The notes under the pieces: generated by a model | What the model was told of the DNA's origin: nothing | Seen by the model: the letters and a program-made list of their open reading frames with translations, nothing else | The model's database searches: none | In this document: in pieces, positions 14,755 through 62,609 of the stretch | How the letters are laid out: every line of letters begins with the position of its first letter | Position numbering within the stretch: position 1 is the stretch's first letter | Translations under genes and position numbers: made by a program | Assembly: GCA_036874045.1 (NCBI GenBank) | Contig: CM072344.1 | Location: 6,234,501 to 6,298,500 of the forward strand | Direction of reading: 5' to 3' | From: Cymodocea nodosa | Taxonomy: Eukaryota; Streptophyta; Magnoliopsida; Alismatales; Cymodoceaceae | DNA: 64,000 nt

Positions 14755-15900
14755 TCATAGTTTAAGAACATGATTGAAAGTAGTAACAAATGGAATAAAC
14801 GTGTCAGTCCAAGAAAACTTTTTAGGCATATTTCTTTTTGCTATTAATTTTGTTTCAATGTAGTCTATTTTCCTTTTCTACTTGTAAACTTGCAATATCT
14901 TATCAATACTAAATATGAGTGTATTACCATTAATGAAATGAAATGTAGAAAGAGATCCTCTTCTATTCCAAGATAATGTAGCTATTTCTATTTCTACATC
15001 TATTTCAATATATTCCTCTTCCCACTTTCATTCATTTAGGTCTTTCATAATCCATATTTAAAATTTCCTTAATTCATCCCACCATCTTATCAAACATAAA
15101 GTAGGATCATCATATTCATTATACCACATTCCTAATTGAATTCTATCATCTTCTGCAGACGGTGGTTTAGCTATATCACTCAGTATAGGTAATATTTCTA
15201 TGAAGTCATCATCATAACTATCTATGCTTACTATGTATAAATCAGATCTAAATGCAACTGATATATCTGTGACTAAATATATATATCCATCAAGTATGAC
15301 ATGTATGCTATTAATTAATGCTTTCTGTTCTAGATATATCATAGTATTTTCAGTCCAAGATCTATTTAGAAAATTATACACACTTAAGCATAAATCTTCA
15401 TCCCAATTTCCAATTGGTCTCCAATAATACAATTTTTCAGGAATAGTCAAATTTTTATCAGAAAAGATTAATGCTGACCCACAATTTTCAGTTGATACTT
15501 CAAATCTATTAGGCCTTCCTATATTCCATTCTTCTCTAGTGATAGGATTTCTAATCAAAATATCAGGTAATTGAATTGCATTCCTTGGTTTGGTTCTGTA
15601 AATAATTAATCCTTCATCCATCCTCATAATATGATCTATTCCTTCTAATGTATTGGGTGGAATTCCAACAGTTTCTTCCATATTCAGATATTCATAGCTA
15701 ATTGAATTACAATTAAATGACTTCCATAAAAATCCATCTCGAATCTTAGTCATTTTTGAAGCTTGTAATCCATGAAAATATTTTTCTCTAACACAGTCTT
15801 TAATTTTCTTTGATACACAACACAATCTACATAGATCTTTAGCTAGCAGGTTACTTAGTACTTCCCTCAATGCATCCAGTGGTAGTTTCATCAATTCCAT
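14755..15900 (-). pseudogene. F-box protein ORF of G-B
   Basis: F-box proteins are substrate adaptors of SCF (Skp1-Cullin) ubiquitin ligases. The first 45 residues match the F-box pattern: LPLDALREVLSNL, then KDLCRLCCVSK. The rest resembles the beta-rich substrate-side domains of plant F-box proteins (GSLSTFHFINGNT near the C-terminus), with no clear kelch or LRR repeats. The start is the ATG at 15900, which directly follows ACAG and a TACTAAAT plus U-rich stretch. The frame is open for 280 codons to TAA at 15058, then reads on with further stops (for example near 15031 and in VYK-stop) to 14755. It lies between the gag core and the 3' module, same strand. Homologues with the same place and start are at 29430-30565 and 57449-58588. 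Substrate unknown. Confidence 0.85.
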
Positions 15901-16117
15901 CTGTTATGATTCTTTATAACATAAACAAAAATTTAGTAGAGACAAAATTAACATAGCTACTTACATACCCTCATGGAGTTCGGTCATAACTCAATGGACT
16001 GAGTTCGTTGAGTTAAGTAATAACTCTACGATATTACTAACTATAATTAAACTTATATTTTTTTATTATTTTTTTTATACATACTATATTATACATAGTT
16101 GCTTTCGTTATACTACT

Positions 16118-17467
16118 TCATTTAGCTTCCCTCTCATAGGAGGTATCAATTTCATTCACAGTTCTGTTGACAAGGTTAGGTACTACTTGCATTGGCAATC
16201 CTCCAATAGGTCTAACTTCTATTGATTCCTTCTATCTAGGAGGTATATTTCTATTCATATTTTGATTTTGAATGGCAACATTTCCAAATACAAGATCTAG
16301 ACGATTGTTTAATTGTTGAATTATCTTTTCTAACTTTTCTATTCTAGATCCTTGTTCAATTAATGCTTCATAACTTATATTTTTGTCATTTATATTTTCT
16401 CCTCTCTGGAAATTGTTGTTCCTCCAAGATAGATTCAGGTGATTTCTCCAATTAGGGTTATAAGAATTTCCAAAGTTATCTTTCTGGTTTCTAGCATAAA
16501 TAATATCTAAGTCATTAACGTTTGCATTCTTTTCTATTAGCTTTTAATTTAATGATAACTCTTCTATTTTCTTTGTTAATTCAGTTAATTTAACTTTAAG
16601 CATAGTGTTTGAATCTATTTCATGCATTCTCCTTGGCAATATTCTTTTATCTATAATAGCTTCAGCCGAGTTTTCCCACTATGTAGTTCTTTTTGCAAAG
16701 TTTTCTATGTATGCCCATGCTTCTTCACTACACAATTTTAAAAATCCATTCTAACAAGTAGATTCTAATAAAGATTTTGTTGAAACATCTATGCCTTCAT
16801 AAATTATACCTATTAATTGTGCTTTACTCATTGCATGATGTGAACATTGAGTCAGTAAATCTTTAAATCTTTCAAAATATTTTCAGAATGATTCTCCCTA
16901 TTTTTGGATAGACATTAATATTTCCTTTTTCTTTTTAATCGTTTGATGTGTTGGATAATATTTTTCCAGAAAAACAAAGCAAAATTCAATCCATGTAGAA
17001 ATTGAATCAGGCAATAAAGTATATAACCATCTCTTAGCTGTGTCTTTTAAAGTAAAAGGGATATATCTAAGTTTAATAACATCAATACTCATGTTTGGCA
17101 TTTTCATCATTTGACAAACTTCATTAAATTCTCTAAGGAAATAATAGGCATATTCTATTTCTAATCCATGAAAGTGTGGCAATTGACTAATATAATTAGA
17201 TTTCAATTCAAACCTATCTCCCTCAAAGTTTGGCAATCGAATACATGAAGGTTCATCAACTAATTCAGGATACAGAATTTCCCCTAATGGTTTTTCTACT
17301 GGAGCAGTCATATCTTCGTTCTCTTTTAAAGAAATGTTAGCTACACCTTTAAGGATTTCGTTAAAGTCCAATTCAAAAAATATTTCAGTATGCCTCTGTG
17401 TTGAATAATCTTGTGTAGGTGTTCTTACTAATTGTTTAGTGCTAGGAGAATGAATTCATGTGCTCAT
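16118..17467 (-). pseudogene. gag capsid core of G-B, downstream of env
   Basis: Gypsy gag capsid region (Retrotrans_gag type), which would form the particle shell. It starts at the ATG 17467 (MST, then an in-frame TGA). Readable segments include IRLPNFEGDRFELKSNYI, AKRWLYTLLPDSISTWIEF and YNPNWRNHPNLSW. The last is a hallmark of Athila/Tat gag, where it normally follows the zinc knuckle. Here no CCHC knuckle is present; in G-A and G-D that part lies at the other end of the element. Stops at about 16916, 16753 and 16544 break the frame. The ORF 16898-17371 holds the N-terminal half. It ends at TGA 16118. Confidence 0.85.
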
Positions 17468-18448
17468 AAACTCTTAACATAAAGTAAAATAGTAGAAGAT
17501 TAATTACATACCAGTCTGAAGCTTTGTTTTCAGTAAATAGTTGTTGACAGATGAAGTTGAATTAGCTGCTTCTTCTTCCAGTTCCCCAATGAATTTTCTT
17601 TTCTTTCAAAAGTGTTGGTAACTTGTAAATAACATGCTATTCTCTATTTATAATGCACGTCCATAAAGCAAATGAATCTCGTTGCAAGAACATGTCTTGT
17701 AACGTACAGTGTGGTTCCTATTTTTATGGATACATGTTCCACTTTTAATTTCAAATTTCAGTTACCGCTAAACCCACGAAGTTTCATTCGTGGCTAAAAG
17801 AATAACTGTTTAGCTTAATCCACGAACTAACCTCGTTGAGTTACAATTAACTCAACGGACTAGCTTCGGTTACTTATTTGCTAACTCCACAGACTAACTT
17901 CGTTGAGTTACAGTTAACTCAATGAAGTGACCTTATATTATATTATTGACCTCGTGGAGTTAAGGTTAACTCAACGAACTTACTCCATTAAGTTAACACT
18001 TAGCAAATTTCTAAAACTTACTCCTCATATTAACTTCTATATTTTTTTCTTTCTACATTTTATCAACTTAATTAAAGTTAAATACATGTCATTAATGCAG
18101 TGTTCTAATTTAACTCATTAAATCTAAACATTATATGCATACTTAACTTATAGTTCATTTCCCGTTGTGAAGAATTTACATTTTACTTTTCAGCATGCAG
18201 ATATATTCAGGCATTAACCAATTATCGTGCATTTAATCATGTCATTCAGATAATTTGTAAATCTTTTAAATAGTCTTGCACATTGTTTAAATAGTTATAT
18301 AATATTCAATACAGTTCTCAATTCTATCATTCATTCTCAAACACGAATTAAAAAAAAACATCTAAAATTCATTCATTTATATGAATAATTTACATTTACA
18401 TATAGTCAAATATCTTTCAATACAAATATAAGTAGATGAACAATACAA
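17468..18448 (-). other. G-B env-gag spacer
   Basis: Non-coding. The stretch 17780-18000 carries a run of GTTGAGTTA/TAACTCAAC inverted pairs. On the minus strand CAGACTGGTATGTAAT at about 17506-17521 resembles a splice donor and is conserved in G-D (55879-55894) and G-E. Upstream of it a short conserved frame ends in KLQTG. Otherwise nothing is recognised. Confidence 0.55.
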
Positions 18449-29429: not shown

Positions 29430-30565
29430 TTAAGAACATGATTGAAAAGTAGAAACAAATGGAATAAATGTGTTAGTCCAAGGAAACTTTTTAGGCATAA
29501 TTCCTCTTGCTATTAATTCTGTTTTAATGCCATTCTTGTTCCTTCTTAATTTGTAAACTTGTAATATATTATCAATGCTAAATACAAGTGTATTACCATT
29601 AATGAAATGAAATGCAAAAAGGGATCCTTTTCAGTTCTAGCGTAATGTAGTAGTTTCTATTTCTACATCTATTTCAATATATTCCTCTTCCCACTTCCAT
29701 TCATTTATGTCTTTCATAATCCATATTTGAAATTTCATCAATTCATCCCACCATCTTATCAGACATAAAGTAGGATCATCATATTCATTATACCACATTC
29801 CTATTTGAATTTTATCAAATTCTGCAGATGGTGGTTTAGCTATTTCTCTCGGTATAGGTAAAATTTCTATATATTCATCATAACTGTCTATGCTCACTAT
29901 ATATAAATCAGATCGAAATGCAACTGATATATTATGACAAGATATATATATCCATCAAGTATGACATGCATGTTGTTAATTAATGATTTTTGTCCTAGAT
30001 ATATCATAGTATTTTCAGTCCAAGATCTATTTAGAAAATTATACACACTCAAGCATAAATCTTCATCCCAATTTCTTGAAGGTCTCCAATAATATAATTT
30101 TTCAGGAATGACAGAATTTTTATTAGAAAATATTAAGGCCGACCCACAATTTATAGTTAGTACTTCATATCTATTAGGTCTTTCTATATTCCATTCTTCT
30201 CTTGTTATAGGATTTCTTATCAAAATATCAGGTAATAGACTTGCATACCTTGGTCTGGTTCTGTATATGACTAATCCTTCATCCATCCCCATAACATGAT
30301 CTATTCCTTCTAATGTATTGGGTGAAATTTCAGTAGTTTCTTCCATATTCAGATATTCATGGGTAATTGAACTACGATTAAATGACTTCCATATGAATCC
30401 ATCTCTAATCTTAGTCATTTTTGCAGCTTGTAGTCCCTGAAAATATTTTTCTCCTACACAGTCTTTAATTTCCTTTGATACACAACACAACTTGCATAGA
30501 TCTTTAGCTGACAAGTTACTTAGTACTTCTCTTAGTGCATCTAACGGTAATTGCATCAATTCCAT
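29430..30565 (-). pseudogene. F-box protein ORF of G-E
   Basis: Same protein as in G-B and G-D: N-terminal F-box LPLDALREVLSNLSAKDL followed by LCCVSKEIKDC, then a long beta-rich region. The ATG at 30565 opens 222 codons. A frameshift near 29935 (after IYLV) moves the frame, and the C-terminal half resumes in 29897-29637 (MSIDSYDEYIEILPI), with another break near 29637. The terminal motif MPKKFPWTDTFIPF is readable to a TAA at 29430. Over the first 40 codons compared with G-B, eight codons differ silently and five change the residue. This suggests protein-level constraint before the copies decayed. Place: between gag core and module. Confidence 0.87.
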
Positions 30566-30750
30566 TTGTTGATTTTGTATAACACAAACAAAAATTTAGT
30601 AGAGACAAAAATTAACATAACTACTGCACACCCTCTTGGAGTTAGGGCATAACTCAACAGACTAAGTTCGTTGAATTAAGGACTAACTCTACGATACTAT
30701 TAACTATAAATAAACATATATATACAGATAGTTGCTTCAGTTATACTGCT

Positions 30751-32095
30751 TCATTCAGCTATCCTCCCAAAAGAGGTATCAATTTCATTAACAGTTCTAT
30801 TGACAGGGTTAGGTATTGCTTGTATTGGCAATCCTCCAGTGTGTCTAACTTCCATTGATTCCTTCTGTCTAAGTGGTATGTTTCTATTTTGATTTTGAAT
30901 TGCAGCATTTCCAAATACAAAATCCAAACGATTGTTTAATTGTTGGATTATCTTTTCTAATTTCTATATTCTAGATCCTTGTTCAAGTAATGCTTCATAA
31001 CTTGTATTCTTCTCATTTACATTTTCTCCTCCCTGGAAATTATTATTTCTCCAAGATAAATTTGGGTGATTTCTCCAATTAGGATTATAAGAATTTCCAA
31101 AGTTATCTTTCTGGTTTCTAGCATAAATAATATCTAAATCATTAATGTTTGCATTCTTTTCTGCAAGCTTTTGATTTAATGATAACTCTTCTATTTTCTT
31201 TCTTAATTCAGTTAATTTCACTTCAAGCATAGTACTTGAATCTATTTCATGCATTCCTCTTAGCAATATTCTTTTATCTGTAATATCTTCAACCGAGTTT
31301 TCCCATTGTGTAGTTCATTTTGCAAAGTTTTCTAAATATGCCCATGCTTCTTCACTACATAGTTTCAGAAATCCATTTTGACAAGTAGATTCTAATAAAG
31401 ATTTTGTTGAAGCATCTATGCCTTCATAAATTATACCTATTAATTGTACTTTACACATTGCATGATGTGGACATTGAGTCAGTAAATCTTTAAATCTTTC
31501 AAAATATTTCCAAAATGATTTACCTTGTTTTTGGCTACACATTAATATTTCTTTTTTCTTTTTAATCATTTGATGTGTTGGATAATATTTTTTTTCCAGA
31601 AAAATAGAGTAAAATTCAGTCCATGCAAAAATTGAATCAGGCAACAGAGTATATAACCATCTCTTAGCTGTCTTTTAAAGCAAAAGGGATATATCTAAGT
31701 TTAATAGCATCTATACTCATGTTCGGCATTTTCATCATTTGACAAACTTCATTAAATTCTCTAAGGAAATAATAGGCATCCTCTCTTTCTAATCCATGAA
31801 AATGTGGCAATTGACTAATATAATTAGATTTCAGTTCAAACCTATCTCCCTCAAAGTTTGGCAATCGAATACATGAAGGTTCATCAACTAATTCAGGATA
31901 CAGAATTTCTCCTAATGGTTTTTCTACTGGAGCAGCCATCTCTACGTTCTCTTTTAAAGAAAGGTTAGCTACACCCCAAAGAATTTTGTTAAAGTCTAGT
32001 TCAGAAAATGTTTTAGTACGCCTCTATGTTGAATATTCCTAGGTAGGTGTTCTTACTAATCGTTTAGTGCTTAGAGAACGAGTCCATGTGCTCAT
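30751..32095 (-). pseudogene. gag capsid core of G-E, downstream of env
   Basis: The ATG at 32095 begins MSTWTRSLSTKRLVRTPT, then two stops where G-B has Gln codons (CAA/CAG to TAG). Readable parts are 31939-31664 (IRLPNFEGDRFELKSNYI), 31644-31315 (capsid C-terminal half, KYFERFKDLLTQCPHH) and 31266-30964 (coiled-coil plus YNPNWRNHPNLSW). A short deletion near 31670 removes the start of AKRWLYTLL. No CCHC knuckle. The frame ends GRIAE-stop at 30751. It lies immediately upstream of the F-box ORF on the same strand. Confidence 0.87.
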
Positions 32096-33042
32096 AAATA
32101 AATAGCAGAAGATTAATTACATACCAGTCTGAAGCTTTCCATTCAGTAAATATTTGTTGATGGATGAAGTCGAATCAACTACTTCTCCTTCCAGTTCCCC
32201 CAACGCTTTTCTCCTTACTTTTAAAAGTGTTGGTAACTTGTAAATAACATTCTATTTTATATATATAATGCACATCCATAAAGTGAATAAATCTCGTTGC
32301 AAGAATGTGTCTTGCAACGTGCATCGTGGTTCCTATTTTTATGGGTACATGTACCACTATTAATTTCAAATTTTGGTAACCGCTAAGCCGACGAAGTTTC
32401 GTTCATGGTTAAAAGAATAACTGTTCTACTTAATCCATGAACTAACCTCATTGAGTTACAGATAACTCAATAGAACAAAGTCAATTATTGTTGCTAACTC
32501 CACGGACGAACCTCGTTGAGTTACAGATAACTCAATGGAGTGACCTTATATTATATTACTAACCTCGTGGAGTTAAGTTTAACTCAACGAACTTACTTCG
32601 TTGAGTTAACACTTAGCAACTTCTAAGTTTACTCTTCGTAAGTAACTCTCTGTTTTTTTTTCTCTACATTCTGCTAACTGAAATAAAGTTAAATCCATGT
32701 CATTAATGCATCATTCTAATCAAAATTCGTTTAAATCTGAACATTATATAAATATTTAACTTGCAAGTCATTTTATGTTATGTAGAATTTACATTTTACC
32801 TTGCAACATGCAGAAATTTTCAAGCATCTATCCTGTCATTCAACAAACTATAAATCTGTTAAACATTCATTCATAATGTTCCACAAATTATATAGCATTC
32901 AATATAGTTCATCCATTTCATCATTCTAAACACGCATGAAAAGTATATCTGAAAAACATATATTCATTAATATGAATCAATTACAGTACAATCAAATCAG
33001 ATATTTTTCATATAAATATATAAAAATAGATGAACAATACAA
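32096..33042 (-). other. G-E env-gag spacer
   Basis: Non-coding. It has a donor-like CTGGTATGTAATTAATC near 32115-32131 (minus), a short conserved frame ending in KLQTG before it, and GTTGAGTTA inverted pairs at 32440-32620. The stretch 32280-32330 is the intact version of the site where the solo LTR entered G-D. Confidence 0.55.
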
Positions 33043-34485: not shown

Positions 34486-36728
34486 TGTTTAGAATGAAAA
34501 AGTGCATATTATTAACGGTTAAATGATGGTTAATTGCATAATATTTAGCTTATCATATAAGAATTAAGCCATTATGTTATAATTGCACTGTTATATGCTT
34601 TAATTGAAGAATCTACTTAATTTGGGGGAATTAATGTTAATTTAGTACATTTCTGAACTGTCGATAAGTTGAAAGCTGTAAAATTCTTAAGTATCTGAAT
34701 TTTCTGATATTTCGGACAGTTATGTTTAACATACCGAACATATTTAGACAATTATGTTTAATAGACTGAACATATCAGATAGTTATGTTTAAATTGCTTA
34801 ACAGTTATGTTTTAAGAGAATATTTTATTATTTCTTGAAGTACACGTGTCAAAACCATAATGAATGACTTAAGTGAACTTTCGGTGAGTTATCTATAACT
34901 ATCCGAAATTGCAGCTGGGCATTAGATAGTTATCCCTGTAACTCTCTGAAATCTCTTTTTATTTATAAAATAGCTTAGGACACGTGTCATGTTCAGGGAA
35001 AGTAACTTAAGTGGATTTTCGGTGAGTTATCTCTAACTATCCGGAATGCATCTAAGCATCGGATAGTTAGACCTGTAACTCTCTGAAATGTTATTTTATG
35101 ATTAAACTACTGTTGACACTTATCGAGATCTGGTAGATTTACTTAAGTTATATATCGGTGAGTTATTTGTAACTATCCGAAATGCATTTAAGCATCGGAT
35201 AGTTAAGTTTATAAGTATTCGAAATGCACCTAAGCAATCGGATAGTTAAATTTATGCACGTGTTGAATTTAAATGCTTTAGTATATCACGTGAGGTGCAC
35301 ATGTTTAACTCTTTAAGTTAGCATAATTGTACACGTTGAGTTACATGAATACACACAAGGCAACACATTATGTTAGCAGCTTATTTCTTTATATTTTCTA
35401 ATATGCCACTATAGCGGTTGCAGGAACAGACAATTGGAAGAAAAAACCACGTTTGCACGTATCGCGTAGGGAAAGAAATCATCATCATTGATACGAATGA
35501 AGGAAATCCAACCGACCATTCAAGCAGAAGCAGTTACTACTGAAGAAATATAAAAGAAAAGAAGAAAAAAGAAGAAGTGTGTGATCGATGGGTGGATAGT
35601 GTGTGTAGAGGAGGATCAGCGTCGCAATTCTCTGAAGTACCACACCAACCATCATCATCACCAACCACCATCATCACCACCATAATAACCAATCATCGGA
35701 GGTTTGTGAGAATACTTTCTTGATGTCGAGTCGATTCCGAGCCAAACACAGTGCCTGACAACCACTTTGAGGAGTGATTGCATCGCGGGAAGTGAAGTCA
35801 TTTCAGGAAATCGTAAAGCTTTTAGCCTTGGCTTTGGGTTGATGCCTGTATGTTGAAGAGGAGATCATCTTGCAATTCTGGACTCGCGATTGTATAAGGA
35901 GAGGAGACAGAATTGTAAGTGGTTTAATTTTCAATGGTGTAATCGCGTTGCAAGTAGTGTTAGAAGTATTTACTGTCAAGTGAGATTACTTTACATTTCA
36001 CCTTTCGCCCATTTCCATGTTCATATTAAACCAAAAATACCAAAAACAACTTATCTGCTATTGTATGTTGTATTTGAGTGTTGTATTGTTTGTGTTGTAT
36101 CGTGATTAATGTTATCTTTGTTAGTGTTGTGATTGTTTTATGTTTGTTTTAGTTTTACAGTTTACTGAAATTGGTTCGTTAAAAAGACTTAAAGATTTTA
36201 ATGGTTATGGTTTGAATTATCTAAATGTTAGTATTGCTTAATGATAAATTCAATGTTAACTAACATTAAAGAGCTTAATTGATGTTATTTACAATCTGTG
36301 GAATCGTCCAATGGTTGGCCGAATTCCTCTATAAATAGCAGTATTAAAAAGGAAAAGATAGGCTCGTGGAGTTAACTTAAGTCCACGAGGTTAGTCTGTT
36401 GAGTTAGCCATAACTCAACGAACTTTGTCCGTTGAGTTAATTGTAATTCAACGAAGAGCTTATTGAATATATAAATTTGATTGTTAACAAACGAACAGTT
36501 CTCAAGTTCTTCAGCAATTCCCTGTAGGATCGACCTGTACTTGCACACTGATACAATAGACACTGTGCACTTACAATTAAAGTACAAATTGGAATTAATA
36601 TCTAAATTGTATTAAAGGTTGTTTGCTTACTTCTAAAAGAGAGAATAGGCATAAAGATAAATTAACTAAGTAAAAACAGAAGTAACAAATCCAAGTTTTT
36701 CTAGTGTAGTGCTGGGAAAATACAAACA
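34486..36728 (+). repeat. G-D 5' LTR
   Basis: 2243 bp, begins TGTTTAGAATG and ends ATACAAACA. The stretch 34850-35250 holds arrays of CGGTGAGTTA, TAACTATCCGA and CGGATAGTTA. The stretch 35281-35380 is homologous to part of the copia LTR. The region 35640-35700 carries a CAT/CAC-rich simple repeat. Confidence 0.92.
35549..35556 (+). promoter_or_regulatory. Possible TATA box of the G-D 5' LTR
   Basis: TATAAAAG downstream of the hairpin array, conserved as TATAAAAG at 61410-61417 in the 3' LTR. The transcription start is not determined. Confidence 0.4.
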
Positions 36729-36735
36729 AGTTTTA

Positions 36736-36753
36736 TGACGCCGTTGCCGGGGA
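36736..36753 (+). other. G-D primer binding site (tRNA-Asp type)
   Basis: TGACGCCGTTGCCGGGGA matches TGGCGCCGTTGCCGGGGA, the tRNA-Asp complement typical of Athila elements, at 17 of 18 positions. It is 7 bases past the LTR end. Confidence 0.92.
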
Positions 36754-36852: not shown

Positions 36853-39493
36853 ATGGCATATGCTTATACTCAAAGATTTTTAAAACCTGTAATTAGCATA
36901 TGTGAATTCTGCAATTCTGAAGGACACGACATTTCTAACTGTTTGAAATTGAGACATTTACAGATGGTTAGATCCCATGAACAACAAATGAATTATCCTC
37001 AATATAATAGAGCCGAGTATGAGAATCCTATAGTTTACCCAACTGATGGTCAGTATAGAATGTGTAATATGTTGAGAGACACTGAAGTTTAGGATAGGTA
37101 TGACAGACTAGAGCGTAGTATAGAGCAAAATCTGGACAAACTAGAATACCTTATGTGTCAACAACAAGAAGTCAACCAATTAAACTATAAAGAAGCATAT
37201 TCAGAACCTAAAAAGGATATAATTACAAAATTGAAAAAACCATAATGAAAATTGATCAAAAATTGAATGCAATGAAATTAGATGATCTAGAAACAAAATT
37301 AAAAGCATTAGACGAATATACAATGAAAATACAAGTTATGCAATAGGACAATGAAAATTATAATGTTATAAACCTGCATAATTTGCAAAATATACAGCAA
37401 ACAGAAAATACTAATGCAAGAGAATTTAAAGAATGCACTTTAAAACTAAAAACAATTGAAGATCATAATCACGAAAATGATATACAAAAACATCATGAGA
37501 ATAACGAAAATCTGGAAGATGTATGTGTAACATTAAGATCTGGAACTGATATACCACCAAGAACTCAAAATGAAAATGATATGAAGGTGGATAAGAGTAA
37601 AAATCAAAATGATAATGAAAATGTAATAGCTGAAACTCTAGAAATCACTAAGGAACAATCTGAATCTGCGAATGAAGCTAAAAATGATCAAACAAATCAA
37701 CTAAAAGAAAAAGAGTCTTTGAAATCTTTAGCACCCTATCCCGAAAGATTACAACAAACAATACCTGAAAAACAAGAAAAAATCAGAGAAATTTTTGAAA
37801 AAGTACAAGTTAACATTCCTTTGTTAGATCTATTGTAGAAAATGCCACCATGTGCTAAATTTCTTAAGGATTGGTGTACTAAGAAAAGAGAGCGAAAAGT
37901 TCTTAGAAAGGTCTTTTTAGCTGAGCAAAGTAGTTCCCTATTTCTGCCACAAATTCCTAAAAAGTTATCTGATCCTGGAATCCCTGTTATATCATGCACC
38001 ATAGGAAATACCATTCTAGAAAGAACCTTAATAGACTTAGGTGCAAGTATAAATGTTATGCCAAGTGATATATTTGCATCCTTAGGATTACAAGGCTTAA
38101 CTCCTACTAGTACAGTTATTCAATTAGCTGATAGAAGTATAAGATACCTTAGAGGAAAAATAGAGGATGTCTTAATTAAAATCAAAAACTTTATATATCC
38201 TATTGATATTGTAATTTTGGATTCCCAACAAATTAACCATAAAAATAGTGATACATCTTTAATTTTGGGAAGGCCATTTTTAGCAACATGAGAGGCTATT
38301 ATAAATTGTAAGACTGGAGTAATGAAGTTAGCATATGGTAATGAGGATACTCAATTAAATATTTTCAAACTAGAAAGGTTTGAAGAGTTAGAAATGTCCT
38401 TACATACCATAGACTTTTTAGAGGATGAAGGAGATATGTTAGATGATGTGATTCAAGAAGAATTAAATAGGCAATTCAATTCTGAAATTTTAGAAGAAAG
38501 TGAAAGCATAAATATAGAAGGAGATCTGGAAGAAATTCATTTAAAAGATGATGATGTTCAATTAGGAGCTCTAGCTTCTGATGGGCAGCATTTAAAATTA
38601 AAACATTTACCTCCTGAATTAACCTATATATTTCTGGAAGATAAACGAACCTGTCCAATCATTATTGCTTCAAATTTAAAAGAGGATCAAATAGCTAAAT
38701 TAAAAGATGTAGTAAAAAGTTATAAAAAAGCAATAGGATGTACTATGACTGATATAAAAGGGTTAAGTTCAACTTTATGCTGTCATCACATATATTTAGA
38801 AGAGAATGCTAAACCTGTTAGAATTCCTAAGAGGAGATTAAATCCAAACCTTAAAGTAGTCAGGAAGGAAATAGTTAAATGGTTAGATAATGACATAATT
38901 TATCCGATTTTTGATAGCTCGTGGGTTAGTCCAATCCATGTAGTTCCCAAGAAATCAGGATTAACAGTTATTAGGAATGAAAGTCAAGACTTAATACCTA
39001 CTAGAATTCAATCAGGCTGAAGAGTATATATAGACTATAGAAAGCTGAATGTTGTGACTAGGAAAGATCATTTTCCCTTACCTTTTATATATCAAATGCT
39101 GGAAAGATTAGCAGGGCAAGAATATTTTTGTTTCCTAGACGGGTATTCAGGGTATAATCAAATTCTAGTAGCATTAGAGGATCAAGAGAAAATAACTTTC
39201 ACCTATCCTAATGGAACTTATGCTTTTAAGAGAATGCCATTCAGATTATGTAATGCGTCAGCTACCTTTCAAAGGTGTATGTAGGGCACATTTACTGGAA
39301 TGACTGAAGATTTCTTAGAAATATTTATGGATGATTTTACTATATATGGCAACTCATATGAAGTTTGTTTAAAAAATTTAGACTTAATATTAAAACGTTG
39401 TGTGGAAAGAAATCTAGTTTTAAATTGGGAAAAATGTCACTTCATGGTTAAACACGGAATAGTTTTAGGGCATGTTGTTTCTAAGAAAGGGTT
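36853..39493 (+). pseudogene. G-D nucleocapsid, protease and RT (5' part of pol, interrupted by C2)
   Basis: It starts at ATG 36853 (MAYAYTQRFLKPVISICEF). The CCHC knuckle CEFCNSEGHDISNC follows at once, with no capsid core before it. VCVTLRSGTDIPP, the usual gag-protease linker of this clade, is near 37530. Protease shows LIDLGASINVMPSDIF (38030) and ILGRPFLAT (38270). RT begins near 38810 (KPVRIPKRRLNPNL), with IDYRKLN and the active-site box IFMDDFTIYG at about 39320-39350. Stops at 37090, 37242, 37367, 37836, 38289, 39018 and 39282 plus at least one frameshift make it a pseudogene. At 39493 the frame is cut by C2 after VVSKKG and resumes at 48265 with LEVDKAKIEVIS. Confidence 0.9.
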
Positions 39494-41244: not shown

Positions 41245-41246
41245 AG

Positions 41247-46548: not shown

Positions 46549-46562
46549 AAAAAGGGGGAGAT
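46549..46562 (+). other. C2 polypurine tract
   Basis: AAAAAGGGGGAGAT directly before the 3' LTR, the expected plus-strand priming site. Confidence 0.88.
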
Positions 46563-48264: not shown

Positions 48265-50161
48265 AGGTTGGAAGTAGATAAAGCTAAAATAGAAGTAATT
48301 TCTAATCTACCAGAACCTAAATCAGTAAAAGATATTATATCATTTCTAGGACATGCTGGTTTTTATAGAAGATTTATTAAAGACTTTAGCAAAATAGCTA
48401 GACCTTTAACTAATCTATTAAAAGATGTTCCATTTAACTTTGATAAAAATTGCAAGCATTTTTCAGACTTAAGACTAGCTTAATTTCAACTCCTATAATT
48501 CAAGCACTGATTGGAACCATCCATTTGAATTAATGTGCGATGCTTTTGATTTTGCTGTAGAAGCAATATTAGGATAGAAGATAGAAAAATCTCCTAGAGT
48601 GATTCATTATGCAAGCAAAACCTTAAATGATGCTCAAGTTAATTACACAACTACTAAAAAAGAATTATTAGTTGTTGTGTTTGCTTTAGAAAAGTTTAGA
48701 TCATATCTAATTGGAGCTAAAGTAATAGTATAAACGGATTATTCATCTCTAAAACATCTAATAAAGAAAAAAGAAACTAAACCTAGATTGATCCGATGGA
48801 TATTATTATTACAAGAATTTGATCTAGAAATTAAAGATAAAAAAGATTGTGAGAATGTAGTAGTAGATCATTTATCAAGATTACAAATAGAAAAATCAAA
48901 TATTGAAATTAAGGATAATTTTCCTGATGAACAATTAATGACCATCAAAACAATGCCTTGGTATGCAGACATAGTTAATTATTTAGTTACTGGTCTAATA
49001 CCTAAGGATTGGAATAGACAGGATAAGAAATTGTTTTTCTCAAGAGTAAAATATTACTATTGGGAAGACCCATACTTAATTAAGAAATGTCCTGATCTAG
49101 TTTTAAGGAGGTGTGTTCTAGAAACTGAATATCTAAGCATATTGTCTTTCTGTCATGACCAAGCTTTTGTAGGACATTTTGGTTCAAGGAAAACTACTGT
49201 AAAAATTCTGCAATGTGGGTTTTATTGGCCAACACTATCCAAAGATGCTCATAAATATTGCTTAAGTTGTTTAAGATGTCAACAAATAGGAAGAATATCA
49301 AAGAGGAATATGATGCCTCTTAATCCTACTATTGAGGTTGAAATCTTTGATGTGTGGGGAATAGATTTTATGGGTCCATTTCCTATGTCTAATCAATTTA
49401 ATTACATATTGTTGGGGGTGGATTATGTATCTAAATGGATAGAAGCTATCAGTGATAGAGGAACTCATTTCTATAATAGAAGTTTTGAAGCCTTAATGAA
49501 GAAATATGGAGTAAACCACAAAATTGCAACATCATATCATTCGCAAACAAGTGGACAAGTAGAAAGTGCAAACAAACAAATTAAATTAATCTTAGAAAAA
49601 GTAGTATATCGTACTAGAACAGATTAGGCTAATAGATTGATAGATGCACTTTGGGCTTATAAAACGAGCTTAAGTATGTCACCTTTTAGGCTAGTATATG
49701 GAAAAAGTTGTCATTTACCTGCTGAAATCGAACATAAAGCTTATTGGGCATTAAAAACTCTGAACACTAATTTAAATCAAGCTACTGAAAATAGAAAAAT
49801 GCAATTAATTGAATTAGAAGAATTTAGAAATGAAGCTTATTCGAAGATTGTAAGAGAAAAAGAGAAAATTAAATTTTGGCATGATAGAAAAATTATTCCA
49901 AAAATCTTTGAAATAGGACAAGAAGTATATCTTTATATGGCTAGACTTCATAATCATCTGGGAAAATTAAAATCTAGATGGGCAGGACCTTACATAGTTC
50001 GAAATATTTATCCTTATGGAGCTATTGAAATTGAAAATCCTAAAAATCAGAATATATTTAAAGTAAATGGACAAAGACTGAAACCTATTCTGAAAACACC
50101 AAAAAGCTCCTTTGGAATTATGGAAGAAGTCAGAGTAGAGGACTACTCGAGCTTTACTTAG
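48265..50161 (+). pseudogene. G-D RNase H and integrase (3' part of pol)
   Basis: The frame resumes after C2 with the end of RT (IISFLGHAGFYRRFIKDF). RNase H includes ELMCDAFDF and ends VVVDHLSRL; stops lie at 48481, 48576 and 48732, with frameshifts. The long frame 48788-49627 covers the integrase zinc finger ([11 protein letters not shown]) and core ([23 protein letters not shown]). About 31 residues between WIEAI and SDRG are missing relative to G-A, between two GCTAT copies. The C-terminal part 49637-50161 ends FKVNGQRLKPIL and VEDYSSFT, typical of Athila/Tat. One TAG at 49627. Confidence 0.9.
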
Positions 50162-50714: not shown

Positions 50715-52956
50715 ATGCTGTTGTGTAACTCCATGATGAGGAAGATGAAGCCTAAATTCTGGGAAGAGGCAGTGGACACCACACAGTTTCTAAAGGAATC
50801 TGAAGAATGGCATACCCGGCAGAAGATCAGGAATACAACAAGAGAGAAAGAGCTACAGAAGGTAGAATCAGAACTCTTTAACTTGAGGAAAGTTTTGGTT
50901 GAGTTAGAAATACAGATACCACAAATAATGGAGACACGAATTAAAGTGGCAACTGAAATTGCAGTAAGTAAAGAAAGAAAGATATGGCCAAATAATTAAG
51001 TAGCCCTAGAATTAATCCAACATAAGTCCTAGCTCTGGTTCAAAAGACGAATCTGTAGACGAGCTAGATGGGTGATCTGGGAGCAAGAAAGGAAAGAAAA
51101 TGAAGAAGAGGCAACTGAAGAACAGGAGGAACCAACTGCTGAAAGACCTATTCCTGAGGAACAGCAGTTAGGACCTCCAGTTCAGCCAATAGAGCCATTG
51201 CCACGAGTTGCATTTGCTTGGCCGAAAACTGAAGAAGAAGAGAAAGAATTTGCTAGCTTGGTCAAGACAGCAAGAGACCAAGGTGATACTCAAGAGATAG
51301 CTATGGCTAAGACACATATTTTATATGATGCCATTAAGAAAAAAAGGGTCTAAGAAAGGATATGGGCCCAGTACAAAATAAAAGTTGAACAGTATCAAGC
51401 AGCGACTAAATCAAGTGCTGCAGGAGAGGCTAGTCCTTCGAAACCAGCAATTATACAAAAAGTTAAATAGGAAGAGCTAGTACCTATGGCTCGAAGGCCT
51501 ACAAAGCCTACTTTTGTAGATTTAATTTCAGAAGATGAAGAGGAAGAACAAACACAACTAATCAGAAAAAAGAAAGGAAAAGAAAAAGTGCCTGAATATG
51601 AGGAAATTAAATTTGAATTACCAATTTTTACAGGGCCTGTGGAGCAAATTTTATTAACCTACTATCCGATTCTAAGGAGGAGCAGGAGGAGCTGCAACAG
51701 TAGGAGCAAAGAAAAGAAGAAAATCAGGCTGAAATTAGTGTACAGCTTGTACAAGAAGAAACAGAAATTAGGGTAGAAACTAAATTGCCCGTGACTCCAT
51801 CCCAATCTGTTACAGAATCAGAAAGAACAGTAATAGAATAGATTGGTAGTCAGGAGGAAAAAGAAAGAGTAGAAAATGAAGAGGTTGAAGAAGCCATTTG
51901 GACAAAAATAATTTTACAGATTCCACTGAAGAACAAGAAACTCTTCCGCAATTTATGGAGAGAATTCAAGATAGAGTGGAGAGTTCTGCCGGCTCAGCAC
52001 CACAAACAGAAATAGAAATTCAGGAATCTGTAGAGAATGTTCAAATGCAGCCTATGGAAGAGGAAGAGCAAGAGCAAACCCCTCTAGAACAACAAAGTCA
52101 CCTTCCTAACCCGACTAAAACAACAATTTTGAATGAAGTACATTTTTGTAGTCAGGAAGCTTATACCAAATACCAAGAAATAAGGGGTTACGACATTATT
52201 TACAGTAGACCAATAAATTGGGATGGAATGCAAGAAATCAAAGATTTATTTGAATTCCAAGGTCTACTGCAATCCATTTCTCAAGAAAGAGGGCATGCAG
52301 TATATGAGAATTTAGTACCCTGTTTTTATGCAAATTTAAGAGAAGGAGAAAGAGGATTAATTTCCAACGTAGAGGAAGCTAATGTACAGATAACACCAGA
52401 ACTTTTCCACAACATTTTTGGTTTAAAGAATGAAGGAATAAAAATTTTGGAAGATACAACTACAGCTGAATGGACTAAACAACAAATTAAGGATTGTTTA
52501 GCTATCAATCCTGGTGTGCCGTTATTAAACAGATTGAAGCATTTAAATGGTAAAGCACACATGGTAGCTAACATTCTGATTAAGAATGTCTATCAACGAC
52601 AGGGCCATGATATAGAATTAAGTCAATTTGTCAAATGGGCTACATATGTAGTTGTAAATAAGATCCAAATAAATTGGTCTACAGTTTTTATCTCCAAGCT
52701 GAAAACAGTGAAGAAGAAATTATTTTATGGAGATTTGATTCCACTACTGATGGTGGACTGTATCGATTTCACGAAATGGACATCAAAAAGTATCAGATCT
52801 AGAATCATTTTAGTGAAAGAATACAGAAATTTTGTAGTTGCAGAACTAGCTATACCTTTTAGAGGAATTATAGGAGCTGTAGAGAGGATTAATCAATTAG
52901 AACTTCAATTAGAAAAACTCCAGAAGGAAGTAGATGAACTTAGGCATAGAGATTAA
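50715..52956 (+). pseudogene. env-position ORF of G-D (fullest copy)
   Basis: About 745 codons. The N-terminal part (50715-50999) is a charged coiled coil with MKPKFWEEAVDTTQFLKE. The middle is Glu/Gln/Pro-rich (51072-51353, 51486-51776). The last 352 codons (51898-52956) hold a globular domain from about 52190 (VHFCSQEAYTKYQEI) to 52850, and a C-terminal leucine-rich coiled coil (LEKLQKEVDELRHRD). The domain matches what plant databases call putative plant transposon protein (Transposase_32) and what Athila papers call the env-like region. Stops at 50997, 51030, 51351 and 51468 and one frameshift between 51660 and 51900 break it. No signal peptide or membrane helix is visible. It sits between pol and gag core. 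Function unknown. Confidence 0.82.
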
Positions 52957-53693
52957 ATTGTATTGTTCATCTACTTATGTAAAATTGTATGAAATTGTAT
53001 GATGTACTTGTAATGTAATGGATTCATATTAATGAATATAATTTTTTTTCAGATGCAATTTTTATACGTGTTTTGGATGTGAAATGAATGAAATTTATTG
53101 AATATTATGTAATTTGTGGAACTTTAAGAATGAATATGTAACAGATTTACAATTTGCTGAATGACAGGATAACTACTTAAAAATTTCTACATGTTGTAAG
53201 GTAAAATATAAATTCTGCATAACATAAAATGACCTGCAAGTTAAATCTTTATATAATGTTCAAATTTAAATGTATTTTAATTAGAATGATGCATTAATGA
53301 CATAGATTTAACTTTATTTCAGTTAGCAGAATGAAAGAAAAAAAAAAACAGAGAGGTACATACGAGAGTAAGTTGCGAAGTGTTAACTCAACGAAGTAAG
53401 TCCGTTGAGTTAAACGTAACTCCACGAGGTCAGTAATATAATATAAGGTCACTCCGTTGAGTTATCTGTAACTCAACGAGGTTAGTCCGTTGAGTTAGCA
53501 ACAGTAACCGACTGTATTCTGTTGAGTTATCTGTAACTCAACGAGGTTAGTTCATGGATTAAGCAGAACGGTTATTCTTTTAACCACGAACGAAACTTTG
53601 TCAGCTTAGTGGTTACCAAAATTTGAAATTAGTAGTGGTACATGTACCCATAAAAACAGGAACCACGATGCACGTTGCAAGCCACGTTCTTGC
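52957..53693 (+). other. G-D env-gag spacer, first part
   Basis: Non-coding. The stretch 53370-53560 is a run of GTTGAGTTA/TAACTCAACG inverted pairs, each about 20-30 bases. A TTTTTTTTCAG acceptor-like tract ends near 53052. The spacer is interrupted at 53693 by the solo LTR. Confidence 0.55.
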
Positions 53694-55712: not shown

Positions 55713-55914
55713 AACGAGATTTATTCACTTTATGGATGTGCAGTATATATATAAAATAGAATGTTATTTATGAGTTACTAGCACTTTTAAAAGAAAGGAG
55801 AATGTGTTGGAGGAACTGGAAGGAGAAGTAGCTGATTCAACTTCATCCAACAACAAATATTTATTGAATGGAAAGCTTCAGACTGGTATGTAATTAATCT
55901 TCTACTATTTATTT
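55713..55914 (+). other. G-D env-gag spacer, second part, with splice-donor-like site
   Basis: CAGACTGGTATGTAATT at about 55879-55895 is identical in G-B and G-E and resembles a plant donor (GTATGTAA). Before it a short frame ending in NGKLQTG is conserved in all three copies. Confidence 0.5.
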
Positions 55915-57257
55915 ATGAGCACATGGACTCATTCTCTAAGCACTAAACGATTAGTAAGAACACCTACCTAGGAATTTTCATTGTAGAGGAGTACTGAAAA
56001 ATTTTCTGAACTAAACTTTAATGAAATTCTTTGGGGTGTAGCTAACCTTTCTTTAAAAGAGAACGTAGAGATGGTTGCTCTAGTAGAAAAACCATTGGGA
56101 GAGATTCTGTATCCTGAATTAGTTGATGAACCTTCATGTATTCGATTGCCAAACTTTGAGGGAGATAGGTTTGAACTGAAATCTAATTATATTAGTCAAT
56201 TGCCACATTTTCATGGATTAGAAAGAGAGGATGCCTATTATTTCCTTAGAGAATTTAATGAAGTTTGTCAAATGATGAAAATGCCGAACATGAGTATAGA
56301 TGCTATTAAACTTAGATATATCCCTTTTTTCTTTAAAAGACAACTAAGAGATGGTTATATACTCTGTCGCCTGATTCAATTTCTACATGGACTGAATTTT
56401 GCTCTGTTTTTCTGGAAAAATATTATCCAACACATCAAACGATTAAAAAGAAGAAAGAAATATTAATGTGTAGCCAAAAACAGGGTGAATCATTCTAGAA
56501 ATATTTTGAAAGATTTAAAGATTTACTAACTCAATGTTCACATCTTGCAATGAGTAAAGCATAATTAATAGGTATAATTTATGAAGGCATAGATGTTTCA
56601 ATGAAATCTTTATTAGAATCTACTTGTCAAAATGGATTTTTAAAGTTATGTAGTGAAGAAGCATGGGTATATTTAGAAAACTTTGCAAAAAGAACTACAT
56701 AGTGGGAAAATTCGACTGAAGCTATTGTAGATAAAAAAATATTGCCAAGAGGAATGCATGAAATAGATTCAAATAATATGCTTGAGGTGAAATTAAATGA
56801 ATTAACAAAGAAAATAGAAGAGTTATCATTAAATCAAAAGCTAGCGGAAAAAAATGCAAACATAAATGACTTAGATATTATTTATGCTAGAAACCAGAGA
56901 GATAACTTGGGAAATTCTTATAATCCTAATTGGAGAAATCACCCGAATTTATCTTGGAGAAACAACAATTTCCAAGGAGGAGAAAATATAAATGAGAAGA
57001 ATATAAGTTATGAAGTATTAATTGAACAAGGATCTAGAATTGAGAAATTAGAAAAGATAATCCAACAATTAAACAATCGTCTAAATTTTGTATTTGGAAA
57101 TGCTGCAATTCAAAATTAGAATAGAAATATACCACTTAGACAGAAGGAACCAATGGAAGTTAGACCTACTGGAGGATTGCCAATACAAGCTATACCTAAT
57201 CCTGTCAATAGAACGGTTAATGAAATTGATACCTCTTCTAGGAGGGTAGCTGAATGA
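55915..57257 (+). pseudogene. gag capsid core of G-D, downstream of env
   Basis: The ATG at 55915 begins MSTWTHSLSTKRLVRTPT, then two stops. The Retrotrans_gag-type core runs from IRLPNFEGDRFELKSNYI (56136) through KYFERFKDLLTQC, LWSEEAW-like and FAKRTT segments to a coiled coil (56790-56880) and YNPNWRNHPNLSW (56922). A one-base frameshift near 56330, a TAG at 56499 and others disrupt it. It ends RRVAE-TGA at 57257. There is no zinc knuckle; the knuckle of this element is at 36900. G-B and G-E have the same protein in the same place. Confidence 0.88.
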
Positions 57258-57448
57258 AGTAGCATATCTGAAGCAACTATCTATATGTATATATGTTTTT
57301 TTATTTTTAGTTAATAGTATCGTAGAGTTAGTCCTTAATTCAGTGAACTTAGTCTGTTGAGTTATTCCTTAACTCCACGAGGGTGTGCAGTAGTTATGTT
57401 AATTTTTGTCTCTACTAAATTTTTGTTTGTGTTATACAAAATTGACAA
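57258..57448 (+). other. gag-F-box spacer of G-D
   Basis: A GTTGAGTTA pair is at 57350-57375. CTCTACTAAATTTTTGTTTGTG, split here as TACTAAAT plus a U-rich run, precedes the F-box ATG and is conserved in G-B and G-E. It looks like a branch site and polypyrimidine tract. In G-B it is followed by ACAG just before the ATG. Confidence 0.4.
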
Positions 57449-58588
57449 ATGGAATTGATGCAATTACCGTTGAATGCACTAAGGAAAGTACTAAGTAACT
57501 TGTCAGCTAAAGATCTATGCAGGCTGTGTTGTGTTTCAAAGGAAATTAAAGACTGTATTGAAGAAAATTATTTTCAGGGACTATAAGCTACAAAAATGAC
57601 TAAGATTAGAGATGGATTCATATGGAGGTCATTTAATCGTAGTTCAATTAACCATGAATATCTGGCTATGGAAGAAACTACTGGAATTCCACCCAATGCA
57701 TTAGAAGGAATAAATCATATTATGGGGATAGATGAAGGATTAATCATATACAAGACGAGACCAAGGTATGCAAGTTTATTATTACCTGATATTTTGATAA
57801 GAAATCCTATAATAGGAGAAGAATGGAATATAGGAAGATCTAATAGATTTGAAGCACCAACTATAAATTGTGGGTCAACTTTAATATTTTCTGAAAAAAA
57901 TTCTACAATTCCTAAAAAATTATATTATTGGAGAACTACAGGAAATTGGGGTGAAGATTTATGCTTAAGTGTGTATAATTTTCTGAATAGATCTTGGAAT
58001 GAAAATATTATGATATATCTAGGACAGAAATCATTAATTAACCAAACACATGTCATACTTGATGGATATATATATCTAGTCACAGAGATATCAATAGCAT
58101 ATGGATCTGATTTATACATAGTGAGTATAGACAGTTATAATGAATATATAGAAATTTTACTTGCACTGAGTGAAATAGCTAAACCACCATTTGTAGAATT
58201 TAATAAAATTCAAATAGGAATGTGGTATAATGAAGAAGATGATCCTACTTTATGTCTGATAAGATGGTGGGAGGAACTGATGAAATTTCAAATATGGATT
58301 ATGGAAGACATAAATGAATGGAAGTGGGAAGAGAAGTATATTGAAATAGATGTAGAAATAGAAACTGCTACATTACCTTGGAACCAAAAAGGATCCCTTT
58401 CTGCATTTCATATCATTAATGGTAATACATTTGTATTTGGAATTTATAATATATTACATGTTTACAAATTAAGAAGGAATAAGAACTACATTAAAACAAA
58501 ATTAATAGCAAGAAGACCTATGCCTAAAAAGTTTGCTTGGACTGACACGTTTATTCCATTTGTTTCCACTTTTCAATCATGTTCTTAA
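57449..58588 (+). pseudogene. F-box protein ORF of G-D
   Basis: The longest of the three: 379 residues from ATG 57449 to TAA 58588 with a single in-frame stop (TAA, 57584-57586, codon 46, where G-B has a Gln-type position in GLQA). The F-box is LPLNALRKVLSNLSAKDL plus LCRLCCVSKEIKDC. The remaining 330 codons are open and carry ILIRNPIIGEEWNIGRSN, LYYWRTTGNWGEDLCLSV, LCLIRWWEELMKFQIWIM, a GSLSAFHIINGNTFVFGI strand-rich stretch and MPKKFAWTDTFIPFVS at the end. This resembles the C-terminal domains of plant F-box proteins, without kelch or LRR signatures that I can confirm. It likely acts, or acted, as an SCF adaptor; the substrate is unknown. Downstream is a conserved 3' stretch and a donor-like ACAAGGTATGTAA at 58906. 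Confidence 0.88.
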
Positions 58589-60324: not shown

Positions 60325-60337
60325 GGTATGGGGGAAG
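60325..60337 (+). other. G-D polypurine tract
   Basis: GGTATGGGGGAAG immediately before the 3' LTR. Confidence 0.9.
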
Positions 60338-62609
60338 TGTTTAGAATGAAAAAGTACATATTATTAACGGTTAAATGATGGTTAATTGCATAATATTTAG
60401 CTTATCATATAAGAATTAAGCCATTATGTTATAATTGCATTGTTATATGCTTTAATTGAAGAATCTGCTTAATTTGGGGGAATTAATGTTAATGTAGTAC
60501 ATTTATGAACTGTCGGTAAGTTGCAAGCTGTGAAATTCTAAAGTATCCGAATTTTCTGATATTTCAGACAGTTATGTTTAACATACTGAACATATTCGGA
60601 CAGTTATGTTTAACAGACCAAACATATCGGATAGTTATGTTTAAATTGCCGAACAGTTATGTTTTGAGAGAATATTTTATTATTTCCTGAAGTACACATG
60701 TCTAAACCATAATGAATGACTTAAGTGAACTTTCGGTGAGTTATCTATAACTATCCAAAATTGCAGTTGGGCATCGGATAGTTATCCTTGTAACTCTCCG
60801 AAATCTCTTTTTATTTATAAAATAGCTGAGGACACGTGTCATATTCAGGGAAAGTGACTTAAGTGGATTTTCGGTGAGTTATCTCTAACTATCTGAAAAT
60901 CTGAAATGCATCTAAGCATCGGATAGTTAGACTTGTAACTCTCCGAAATGTTATTTTATGATTAAACTACTGTTGACACATGTTGAGATCTAGTAGATTT
61001 ACTTAAGTTATATATCGGTGAGTTATTTGTAACTATCCGAAATGCATCTGAGTATCGGATAGTTAAGTTTATAAGTATCCGAAATGCATTTGAGCAATCG
61101 GTTAGTTAAATTTATGCACACATTGAATTTAAATGCTTTAGTATATTATGTGAGATGCACATGTTTAACTCGTTCAGTTAGCATAACTGTACGTGTTGAG
61201 TTACATGAATATACACTAAGGCAACACGTTATGTTAGCAGCTTATTTCTTTATATTTTCTAATATGCCACTGTAGCGGTTGTAGGAACAGATAGTTGGAA
61301 GAAAAAACCACGTTTGCACGTATCGCGTAGGGAAAGAAATCATCGTCGTTGATACGAATGAAGGAAATCCAACTGACCATTCAAGCAGAAGCAGTTACTA
61401 CTAAAGAAATATAAAAGAAAAGAAGAAAAAAGAAGTGTGTGATCGATGGGCGGACAATGTGTGTAGAGGAGGATCAGCGTTGCAATTCTCTGAAGTACCA
61501 CACCAACCATCATCATCACCAACCACCATCATCACCACCATAATCACCAATCATCGGAGGTCTATGAGAATAATTTCTTGATGTCAGGTCGATTCCGAGC
61601 CAAACACAGTGCCTGACAACCACTGTGAGGAGTGATTGCGTCGTGGGAAGGGAAACCATTTTCACCAAGCGCCGACGCATATTTCAGGAGATCGTAAAGC
61701 TTTTAGCCTTGGCTTCGGGCTGATGCCTATATGCTGAAGAGAAGATCATCTTGCAATTCTGAACTCATAATTCTATAGGGAGAGGAGACAGAATTGTAAT
61801 TGATTTAATTTTTAGTGGTGTAATTGCGTTGTAAGTAGTGTTAGAAGTATTTACTGTCAAGTGAGATTACTTTACATTTCACCTTTCACCCATTTCCATG
61901 TTCATATTAAACCAAAAATACCAAAAACAACTTATCTGCTATTGTATGTTGTATTTGAGTGTTGTATTGTTTGTGTTGTATCGTGATTAATGTTATCTTT
62001 GTCGGTGTTGTGATTGTTTTATGTTTGTTTTAGTTTTACAGTTTACTGAAATTGGTTCATTCAAAAGACTTAAAGATTTTAATAGTTACGGTTTGAATTA
62101 TCTGAATGTTAGTATTGCTTAATGATAAATCCAATGTTAACTAACATCAAAGAGCTTAATTGATGTTATTTACAATCTGTGGAATCGCCCAATGGTTGGC
62201 CGAATTCCTTTGTAAATAGCAGTATTAAAAAGAAAAAGACAAGCTCGTGAAGTTAACTTAAGTCCATGAGGTTAGTCCGTTGAGTTAGCCATAACTCAAC
62301 GAACTTTGTTCATTGAGTTAACTGTAATTCAACGAAGAGCTTATTGAATATATAAATTTGATTGTTAACAAACGAACATCTCTCAAGTTCTTCAGCAATT
62401 CCCTATGGGATCGACCTGTACTTGCACACTGATACAATAGACACTGTGCACTTGCAGTTAAAGTACAAATTGGAATTAATATCTAAATTGTATTAAAGGT
62501 TGTTTGCTTACTTCTAAAAGAGAGAATAGGCATAAAGATAAATTAACTAAGTAAAAACAGAAGTAACAAATCCAAGTTTTTCTAGTGTAGTGTTGGGAAA
62601 ACACAAACA
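60338..62609 (+). repeat. G-D 3' LTR
   Basis: 2272 bp, TGTTTAGAATG to ACACAAACA, followed by TTGGT (target duplication). Hairpin motif array at 60720-61110, copia-like segment at 61141-61240, TATAAAAG at 61410. Confidence 0.92.

Follow-up and report, generated by a model that had tools for sequence, protein, structure and literature searches.

We describe here an F-box gene carried by an Athila-like Ty3/gypsy retrotransposon family in Cymodocea nodosa. Three copies of its open reading frame (ORF), named B, D and E like the elements that hold them, lie in the 64,000-nucleotide stretch analyzed (GenBank assembly GCA_036874045.1, contig CM072344.1, positions 6,234,501 to 6,298,500), hereafter the window. 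The gene is still constrained when measured against the neutral baseline set by C-to-T decay, and its source lineages have kept it by purifying selection. It is probably a working gene of the family and not a passenger, its product presumably being made from a spliced RNA and serving to remove a limiting host factor through an SCF (SKP1-CUL1-F-box) ubiquitin ligase. Extra ORFs in plant gypsy elements are already known; what is new here is the kind of gene, an F-box adaptor, together with an apparent switch by splicing and a capsid gene out of its usual place. To our knowledge, there are few concrete candidates for active resistance of plant retrotransposons to silencing. An F-box gene under selection, apparently spliced and matched at no fewer than 138 genomic places, would be a directly testable one.

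An F-box ORF inside a gypsy element

The three window copies (Table 1) are homologous across all 379 codons when aligned and have the ATG and TAA in common, in agreement with an earlier sequence-only reading of the window, which had placed the same F-box ORF in three copies of one gypsy family. The first 45 codons are an F-box. The profile check proposed in that reading gave PF00646 above its cut-off in all three copies (E-values of 5e-11 at 57449-57583, 5e-10 at 29897-30565 and 1e-9 at 15058-15900), and the profile was also matched in the six of seven rows of protein alignment A2 that possess the N-terminus. The single stop in 379 codons that had been assigned to copy D belongs to copy E, at codon 46.

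Copy E lies within a pair of long terminal repeats (LTRs) of about 2.25 kb, TGTTTAGAATG...CAAACA, delimited by self-comparison and end sequences. The LTR-bounded element E spans 34486-62609 on the + strand, its two LTRs differ by a Kimura two-parameter (K2P) distance of 0.064, and its flanks CTGGT and TTGGT form a target-site duplication matching at four of five positions, seen for this one element. The F-box gene is therefore inside the element. An empty site was also found: the joined flanks of element E align unbroken to 19707-20230 at 79% identity, so E inserted in element D, and D is older. From the end of integrase to the LTR, the order in B and D is the same as in E by self-comparison; the elements holding copies B and D appear to have one LTR in common, in tandem. 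The gene had been placed between a gag core and the 3′ module; it does follow the gag core, with the correction that the gag core itself is downstream of integrase.

The window's own assembly (375 Mb in 28 contigs) was searched for further copies. The copy B ORF gave 6269 first-look candidates, and all 138 places scored, B included, matched at E < 1e-160; copy numbers beyond the scored places are first-look candidate counts only. A search with the 601-base noncoding spacer next to the gene gave 4093 candidates, of which 40 were scored and 30 fetched. The F-box ORF adjoins the spacer in 30 of these 30 loci (one of them E), over at least 1000 of its 1140 bases in 27. In loci L001 to L030, the 3′ end of gag is upstream of the gene in 29, five of them partial, and L013 has the apparently spliced form treated below. 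Host flanking DNA and segmental duplication were rejected as explanations on the LTRs, target-site duplication and empty site, together with this linkage to spacer and gag. The earlier claim that the gene moves with the element was thus borne out.

A genome search with the Pfam F-box profile gave 4218 candidates, 150 of them scored. All 19 spaced places, taken at about every eighth scored row and with flanks read to about 50 bases only, are copies of the element ORF, two of them clearly diverged (L061, 77 to 79% identity; L066, 70 to 72%). Because of this, a profile count would greatly overstate the host F-box family, a point for annotators. The sequence-only reading had also called for a search for element-borne copies and a donor gene; the former are many, and no donor host gene for the ORF was found. 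An ordinary host F-box gene, L080, has 384 codons open in the stretch fetched and is presumably LCR-like. It has no nucleotide match to the element ORF, as the single host F-box gene examined, picked and not sampled.

F-box proteins bind SKP1 and present a target through their C-terminal domain. In two open genomic copies, the C-terminal part of the ORF matches the NCBIfam F_box_assoc_1 model (TIGR01640) at E-values of 1.3e-8 (34.5 bits) and 3.2e-6 (26.7 bits); the match to FBA_1 has an E-value of 0.017, under its cut-off. Judged from these domains, the product is likely an SCF adaptor. Weighing against this assignment, both TIGR01640 scores are under the curated cut-off of 37.9, and a structure prediction from five short alignment rows gave a predicted local distance difference test (pLDDT) score of 30.

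Selection on the F-box ORF

The sequence-only reading had counted eight silent and five replacement codons among the first 40 between the 15-kb and 57-kb copies, and had taken the silent excess as a sign of selection. Alignment by eye gives nine and eight, and the argument itself fails, since neutral C-to-T decay gives a ratio of replacement to silent rates (dN/dS, or omega) of about 0.5 to 1.0. A plain contrast of dN/dS with 1 was rejected as evidence on the same ground. Codon comparison of the three ORFs, also proposed earlier, gave Nei-Gojobori (NG86) omega values of 0.43 for E-B and 0.32 for D-B, and for E-D a value at the neutral level, given below.

The neutral baseline was taken from the adjacent noncoding spacer, which has strong C-to-T and G-to-A decay at CG and CHG sites. 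A codon model was written with separate omega for terminal and internal branches, and identical rows were merged. Read in three pseudo-frames, the spacer gave internal values of 0.84, 1.09 and 0.90 and terminal values of 0.93, 0.63 and 0.82. The neutral expectation is about 0.7 and not 1, because C-to-T decay alone lowers dN/dS.

For 54 copies of the ORF, omega was 0.417 on terminal and 0.237 on internal branches; an internal value of 1 was rejected (2dlnL of 131). Loci L008, L015, L018, L041, L045 and L059 were too broken and were excluded from this model and from that of the spacer-selected set below, which lowers the observed stop means. Four runs of simulated neutral decay along the real tree, with the spacer spectrum, gave internal omega of 0.51 to 0.76, terminal omega of 0.68 to 0.71 and 7.5 to 8.4 stops per copy, against 1.73 stops per copy observed with those six very broken copies dropped.

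About half of the 54 copies were found by protein score, which favours low omega. The test was therefore repeated on codons 51-379 of 43 copies that had come from the spacer search or the F-box profile search, together with the window's three, so that no copy was chosen on the codons tested. Partial rows were excluded: L041, L045, L059 and, from the 19 profile places, L066, L068, L073 and L075. Internal omega was 0.311 and terminal omega 0.494, with 2.05 stops per copy (over 44 copies). In 40 tree-matched neutral simulations, the corresponding ranges were 0.505 to 0.977, 0.542 to 1.009 and 4.63 to 13.79, and none of the 40 reached any observed value. With the linkage in all 30 spacer loci and the 19 of 19 profile copies, this upholds the view of the F-box gene as a stable component of the family that selection has maintained.

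Low omega persists at depth. Pairs with L066 have dS of 0.78 to 1.56 and omega of 0.15 to 0.28 over 166 to 170 codons, and L061 against other copies has dS of 0.47 to 0.78 and omega of 0.28 to 0.44. In the same 31 copies, with L013 below the 0.8 coverage limit, internal omega is 0.239 for the gag core (which had no simulation of its own) and 0.203 for the F-box ORF. Stops number 5.87 per 386 codons in gag and 2.03 per 379 in the F-box ORF, a few partial gag alignments inflating the gag count; the earlier remark that gag is the more damaged of the two agrees with this. Counting transversions only, as these are unaffected by methylation decay, the ratio of replacement to silent changes (N/S) is 0.36 within the B-type (protein-selected) and 0.44 when E-type copies are set against B-type ones.

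Several results tell against selection. The window pair E-D has omega of 0.71 (bootstrap 0.47 to 1.2), transversion-only N/S is 0.91 within the E-type burst, and just 5 of 61 copies have no stop or frameshift, the other 56 having one or the other. Of four separate simulations of the 43-copy set, one had an internal omega of 0.41. The spacer-selected set alone has internal omega of 0.363, terminal omega of 0.514 and 1.89 stops per copy; three tree-matched simulations of it gave 0.60 to 0.90, 0.61 to 0.84 and 2.8 to 3.8 stops, not far above the observed values. Three star-tree simulations gave internal omega of 0.36 to 0.44 and terminal omega of 0.60 to 0.70, so the internal value of the spacer-selected set is not decisive alone. 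The transversion pattern is what constraint on the source elements, with free decay of copies once inserted, would be expected to leave. In the tests made, dN/dS was not near 1 throughout, other members of the family carry the ORF, and the F-box profile was matched; the opposite outcomes had been named at the outset as those that would count against a selected gene.

Apparently spliced copies and possible role

The sequence upstream of the F-box start was read in 78 loci, 75 with a readable 5′ end and three without. Sixty-nine of the 75 enter a T-rich stretch, four (L013, L044, L067 and L078) are joined to ...AAGCTTCAGACT, one (L070) is joined to ...GAAGCAACTATCT, and one is unclassed. The four join positions equivalent to E 55885 and 57440; two BLAST ends are a few bases off, and the letters show the same junction. 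The missing stretch, which contains the gag core, begins GTATGTAATTAATC in all three window copies, with this first donor intact in three of three. Of 70 unspliced loci read, 58 have AG at the end of the T-rich stretch, and E has AA. At the second donor, used by L070, E reads ATATGT, and GT is present in 16 of 20 readable copies, out of 55 loci tried. The four spliced-form copies are 87 to 95% alike; L013 is B-type, and L044, L067 and L078 are E-type. By their junctions, the copies that lack the gag core resemble spliced RNAs that were retrotransposed. In L013 and L044, a longer upstream sequence shows that the gag core is gone; a point on the other side is that for L067, L078 and L070 the loss was read from the junction only, with about 45 to 60 bases upstream. 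Part of the Transposase_32-like ORF (Table 1) sits upstream of the junction in L013.

A mechanism can be proposed in which unspliced RNA would give Gag, and RNA spliced with the gag core as an intron would give the F-box protein, which might begin with a short N-terminal extension. The F-box would join the host SKP1-CUL1 ligase, and the F-box-associated domain would recruit a host protein; a factor limiting the element would then be ubiquitinated, to the element's gain. That the family carries this gene, has maintained it under selection and seems to express it through splicing suggests that the element exploits the host protein-disposal machinery for its own benefit.

As to the target, a silencing factor is our guess for the likeliest single class, and that the target is a silencing or restriction factor can be put forward tentatively. 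Equally tentative is the fuller proposal of a captured F-box and F-box-associated adaptor with the capsid gene in its upstream intron, splicing switching between Gag and an SCF adaptor that removes such a factor. If true, the element would encode its own E3-ligase counter-defence, one that contributed to the family's very high copy number.

Viral proteins offer comparisons. Polerovirus P0 and nanovirus Clink are, like the product proposed here, F-box-type adaptors brought to plant SCF ligases (PMC3588083). Compared by description, P0 has an F-box-like region and no typical C-terminal domains, whereas the ORF here has a plant-type F-box and a probable F-box-associated domain; the exact mode of P0 is debated (PMC3588083). 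Clink, a plant-virus F-box protein whose partners include SKP1 and RB proteins (PMC3588083), is a precedent for a protein that makes the cell permissive in another way, such as cell-cycle control, unrelated to silencing. We consider such a role unlikely here, as nothing favours it above silencing factors. Action on the element's own proteins, for example turnover of Gag or integrase that sets copy number or timing, would fit a single splicing switch that yields either F-box or Gag, as proposed above, and the similar internal omega values of the two. A self-limiting element would presumably gain little unless the damage to the host were large, and we regard this role as rather more doubtful.

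The intronless copies might instead be chance deletions, or one deletion spread by copying. Partial losses do occur (L003, L005, L016, L018 and L028), and among the nine copies compared, L067 has its closest match, by a small margin, in L044 (94.6%), so that these two could share one event. However, the same junction is found in the B-type L013 and in E-type copies only 87 to 89% like it, and the nearest copies of L044 and L078 (L052 and L070, respectively) do not have it. The boundaries of the missing stretch also fall at GTATGT and at a T-rich stretch mostly ending in AG, and a second class of copy uses another site that is itself mostly GT. Deletion is thus very unlikely, and retrotransposed spliced RNA is the reading we keep. 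Least probable of all is that the gene is a passenger, taken up from the host by a single transduction in an ancestral element and carried along since with no benefit to it: the 56 broken copies and the near-neutral ratios in the E-type burst and the E-D pair fit it, but no neutral simulation with the measured decay spectrum among the 40 reached the observed omega or stop count, internal omega resembles that of gag, and low omega persists to dS near 1 and above.

Element structure and known relatives

Coordinates are given in Table 1. The order in element E is LTR, primer site, CCHC knuckle ORF, protease, reverse transcriptase, integrase, Transposase_32-like ORF, gag core, F-box, spacer, polypurine tract and LTR. 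The primer-binding-like site we take to be of the tRNA-Asp type, presumably a likeness to Athila, Calypso and Diaspora.

Table 1. Features of the F-box elements, in positions of the window
Feature	Position	Strand	Remarks
5′ LTR of element E	34486..36728	+	TG...CA; preceded by CTGGT
Primer-binding-site-like sequence, after 5′ LTR	36736..36753	+	From end sequences
Front ORF with CCHC zinc knuckle at 36901	36853..37089	+	No capsid core found in front ORF
gag tail and aspartic protease	37383..38291	+	
Reverse transcriptase start	38322..39493	+	Recognized by eye; then copia interruption; 38322-39017 without Pfam match
RNase H/integrase part of pol	48266..50161	+	Integrase matches within 48788-49624
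Transposase_32-like ORF, downstream of integrase	51898..52956	+	Weak PF20167 match, 23.3 bits against cut-off of 45
gag core (capsid) coding region	55987..57140	+	Frameshifted in E
Predicted intron of F-box transcript (long form), copy E	55886..57439	+	GTATGT donor at 55886; acceptor dinucleotide 57438-57439; contains gag core
Corresponding stretch, copy D	30575..32124	-	Donor intact, acceptor decayed
Corresponding stretch, copy B	15912..17511	-	Donor and acceptor dinucleotides intact
F-box and F-box-associated ORF, copy E	57449..58588	+	379 codons and stop; one internal stop, codon 46
F-box ORF, copy D	29430..30565	-	Two internal stops, one frameshift
F-box ORF, copy B	14755..15900	-	First 280 codons open, then three stops and one frameshift
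Polypurine tract GGTATGGGGGAAG, immediately 5′ of 3′ LTR	60325..60337	+	
3′ LTR of element E	60338..62609	+	Then TTGGT

The only CCHC knuckle found by pattern in the window outside the two copia elements is at 36901, in the ORF right after the primer site. The capsid core is present at three places in the window, each beside an F-box gene and downstream of integrase, and in L012, whose gag is open for 385 codons, that gag lacks a CCHC knuckle. The short coding stretch of the front ORF recurs, 85% identical, at a second element front (10758-10522, - strand), stop-broken and with the knuckle altered. A gag upstream of pol, an Athila feature, was not seen at either of the two element fronts in the window. 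From these two fronts, a split gag, with a knuckle ORF after the primer site and a capsid core downstream of integrase, may be taken as a lead.

Relatives of the ORF were sought in several collections. A protein database gave 327 candidates with one F-box ORF as query, none at E up to 0.001, and 5094 with a seven-row F-box alignment, none at E up to 1; an integrase query of the same database gave 6433 matches, and among the 120 listed, identity is up to 64% and the named organisms are all flowering plants. Among solved structures, one search returned three weak, irrelevant matches and another returned none, and no relative of the F-box ORF was found in IMG/VR. Among the open-licence papers listed for F-box and retrotransposons, none describes an F-box gene inside an LTR retrotransposon, judged by title and the opening of the abstract. 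One domain screen, covering 121 angiosperm genomes (PMC9289625), reports other extra domains in its section 12, with F-box unmentioned in its main text, and term counts gave no F-box in a review (PMC7264820) or an extra-ORF survey (PMC11963269).

Long LTRs with TG...CA ends, a pol and a long region from integrase to 3′ LTR are features in common with Athila, Calypso and Diaspora (PMC1142308). In those relatives, a gag with a CCHC finger precedes pol in one frame (PMC1142308), whereas here the capsid core is downstream of integrase beside the F-box gene. The orchid Ty3/gypsy ALKBH elements (PMC9289625) are similar in that a gypsy family gained a gene of host type and retained it as subfamilies diverged; the gene there is an RNA demethylase ORF and here an F-box. 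Retand elements, with TRP28 and other extra ORFs, also have these between pol and the 3′ LTR (PMC11963269); they are mostly antisense and predicted to be DNA-binding, whereas the ORF here is sense, of F-box type and seemingly spliced. An F-box and a transposable element are also joined in nematode F-box genes fused to a Tc1/mariner helix-turn-helix (PMC12062965), in the opposite direction, as host F-box genes there took a transposase domain.

Other features of the window were recorded. A second polypurine stretch, GGTATGGGGG, is present 3′ of the F-box gene in each element, at 59018, 28971 and 14299; it lies about 1.3 kb before the LTR-adjacent polypurine tract in E and D and resembles a central polypurine tract. 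Diverged direct repeats with an offset of about 137 bases occur within the LTR (60717-61086, 26887-27249 and 34865-35226). An inverted integrase fragment (24575-25690) is right behind the LTR apparently common to D and B, at the expected B front. A repeat-rich insert at 53692-55707 in E, with related units near 53989-54744, is missing from L013 and L044. A copia-type element at 39493-48278 lies inside the reverse transcriptase of E, with LTR-like ends of 1.7 kb (39493-41256 and 46562-48278) that are 92% alike. A copia polyprotein ORF at 2012-6118 has 1368 stop-free codons with RVT_2, gag and integrase matches and is possibly a younger insertion.
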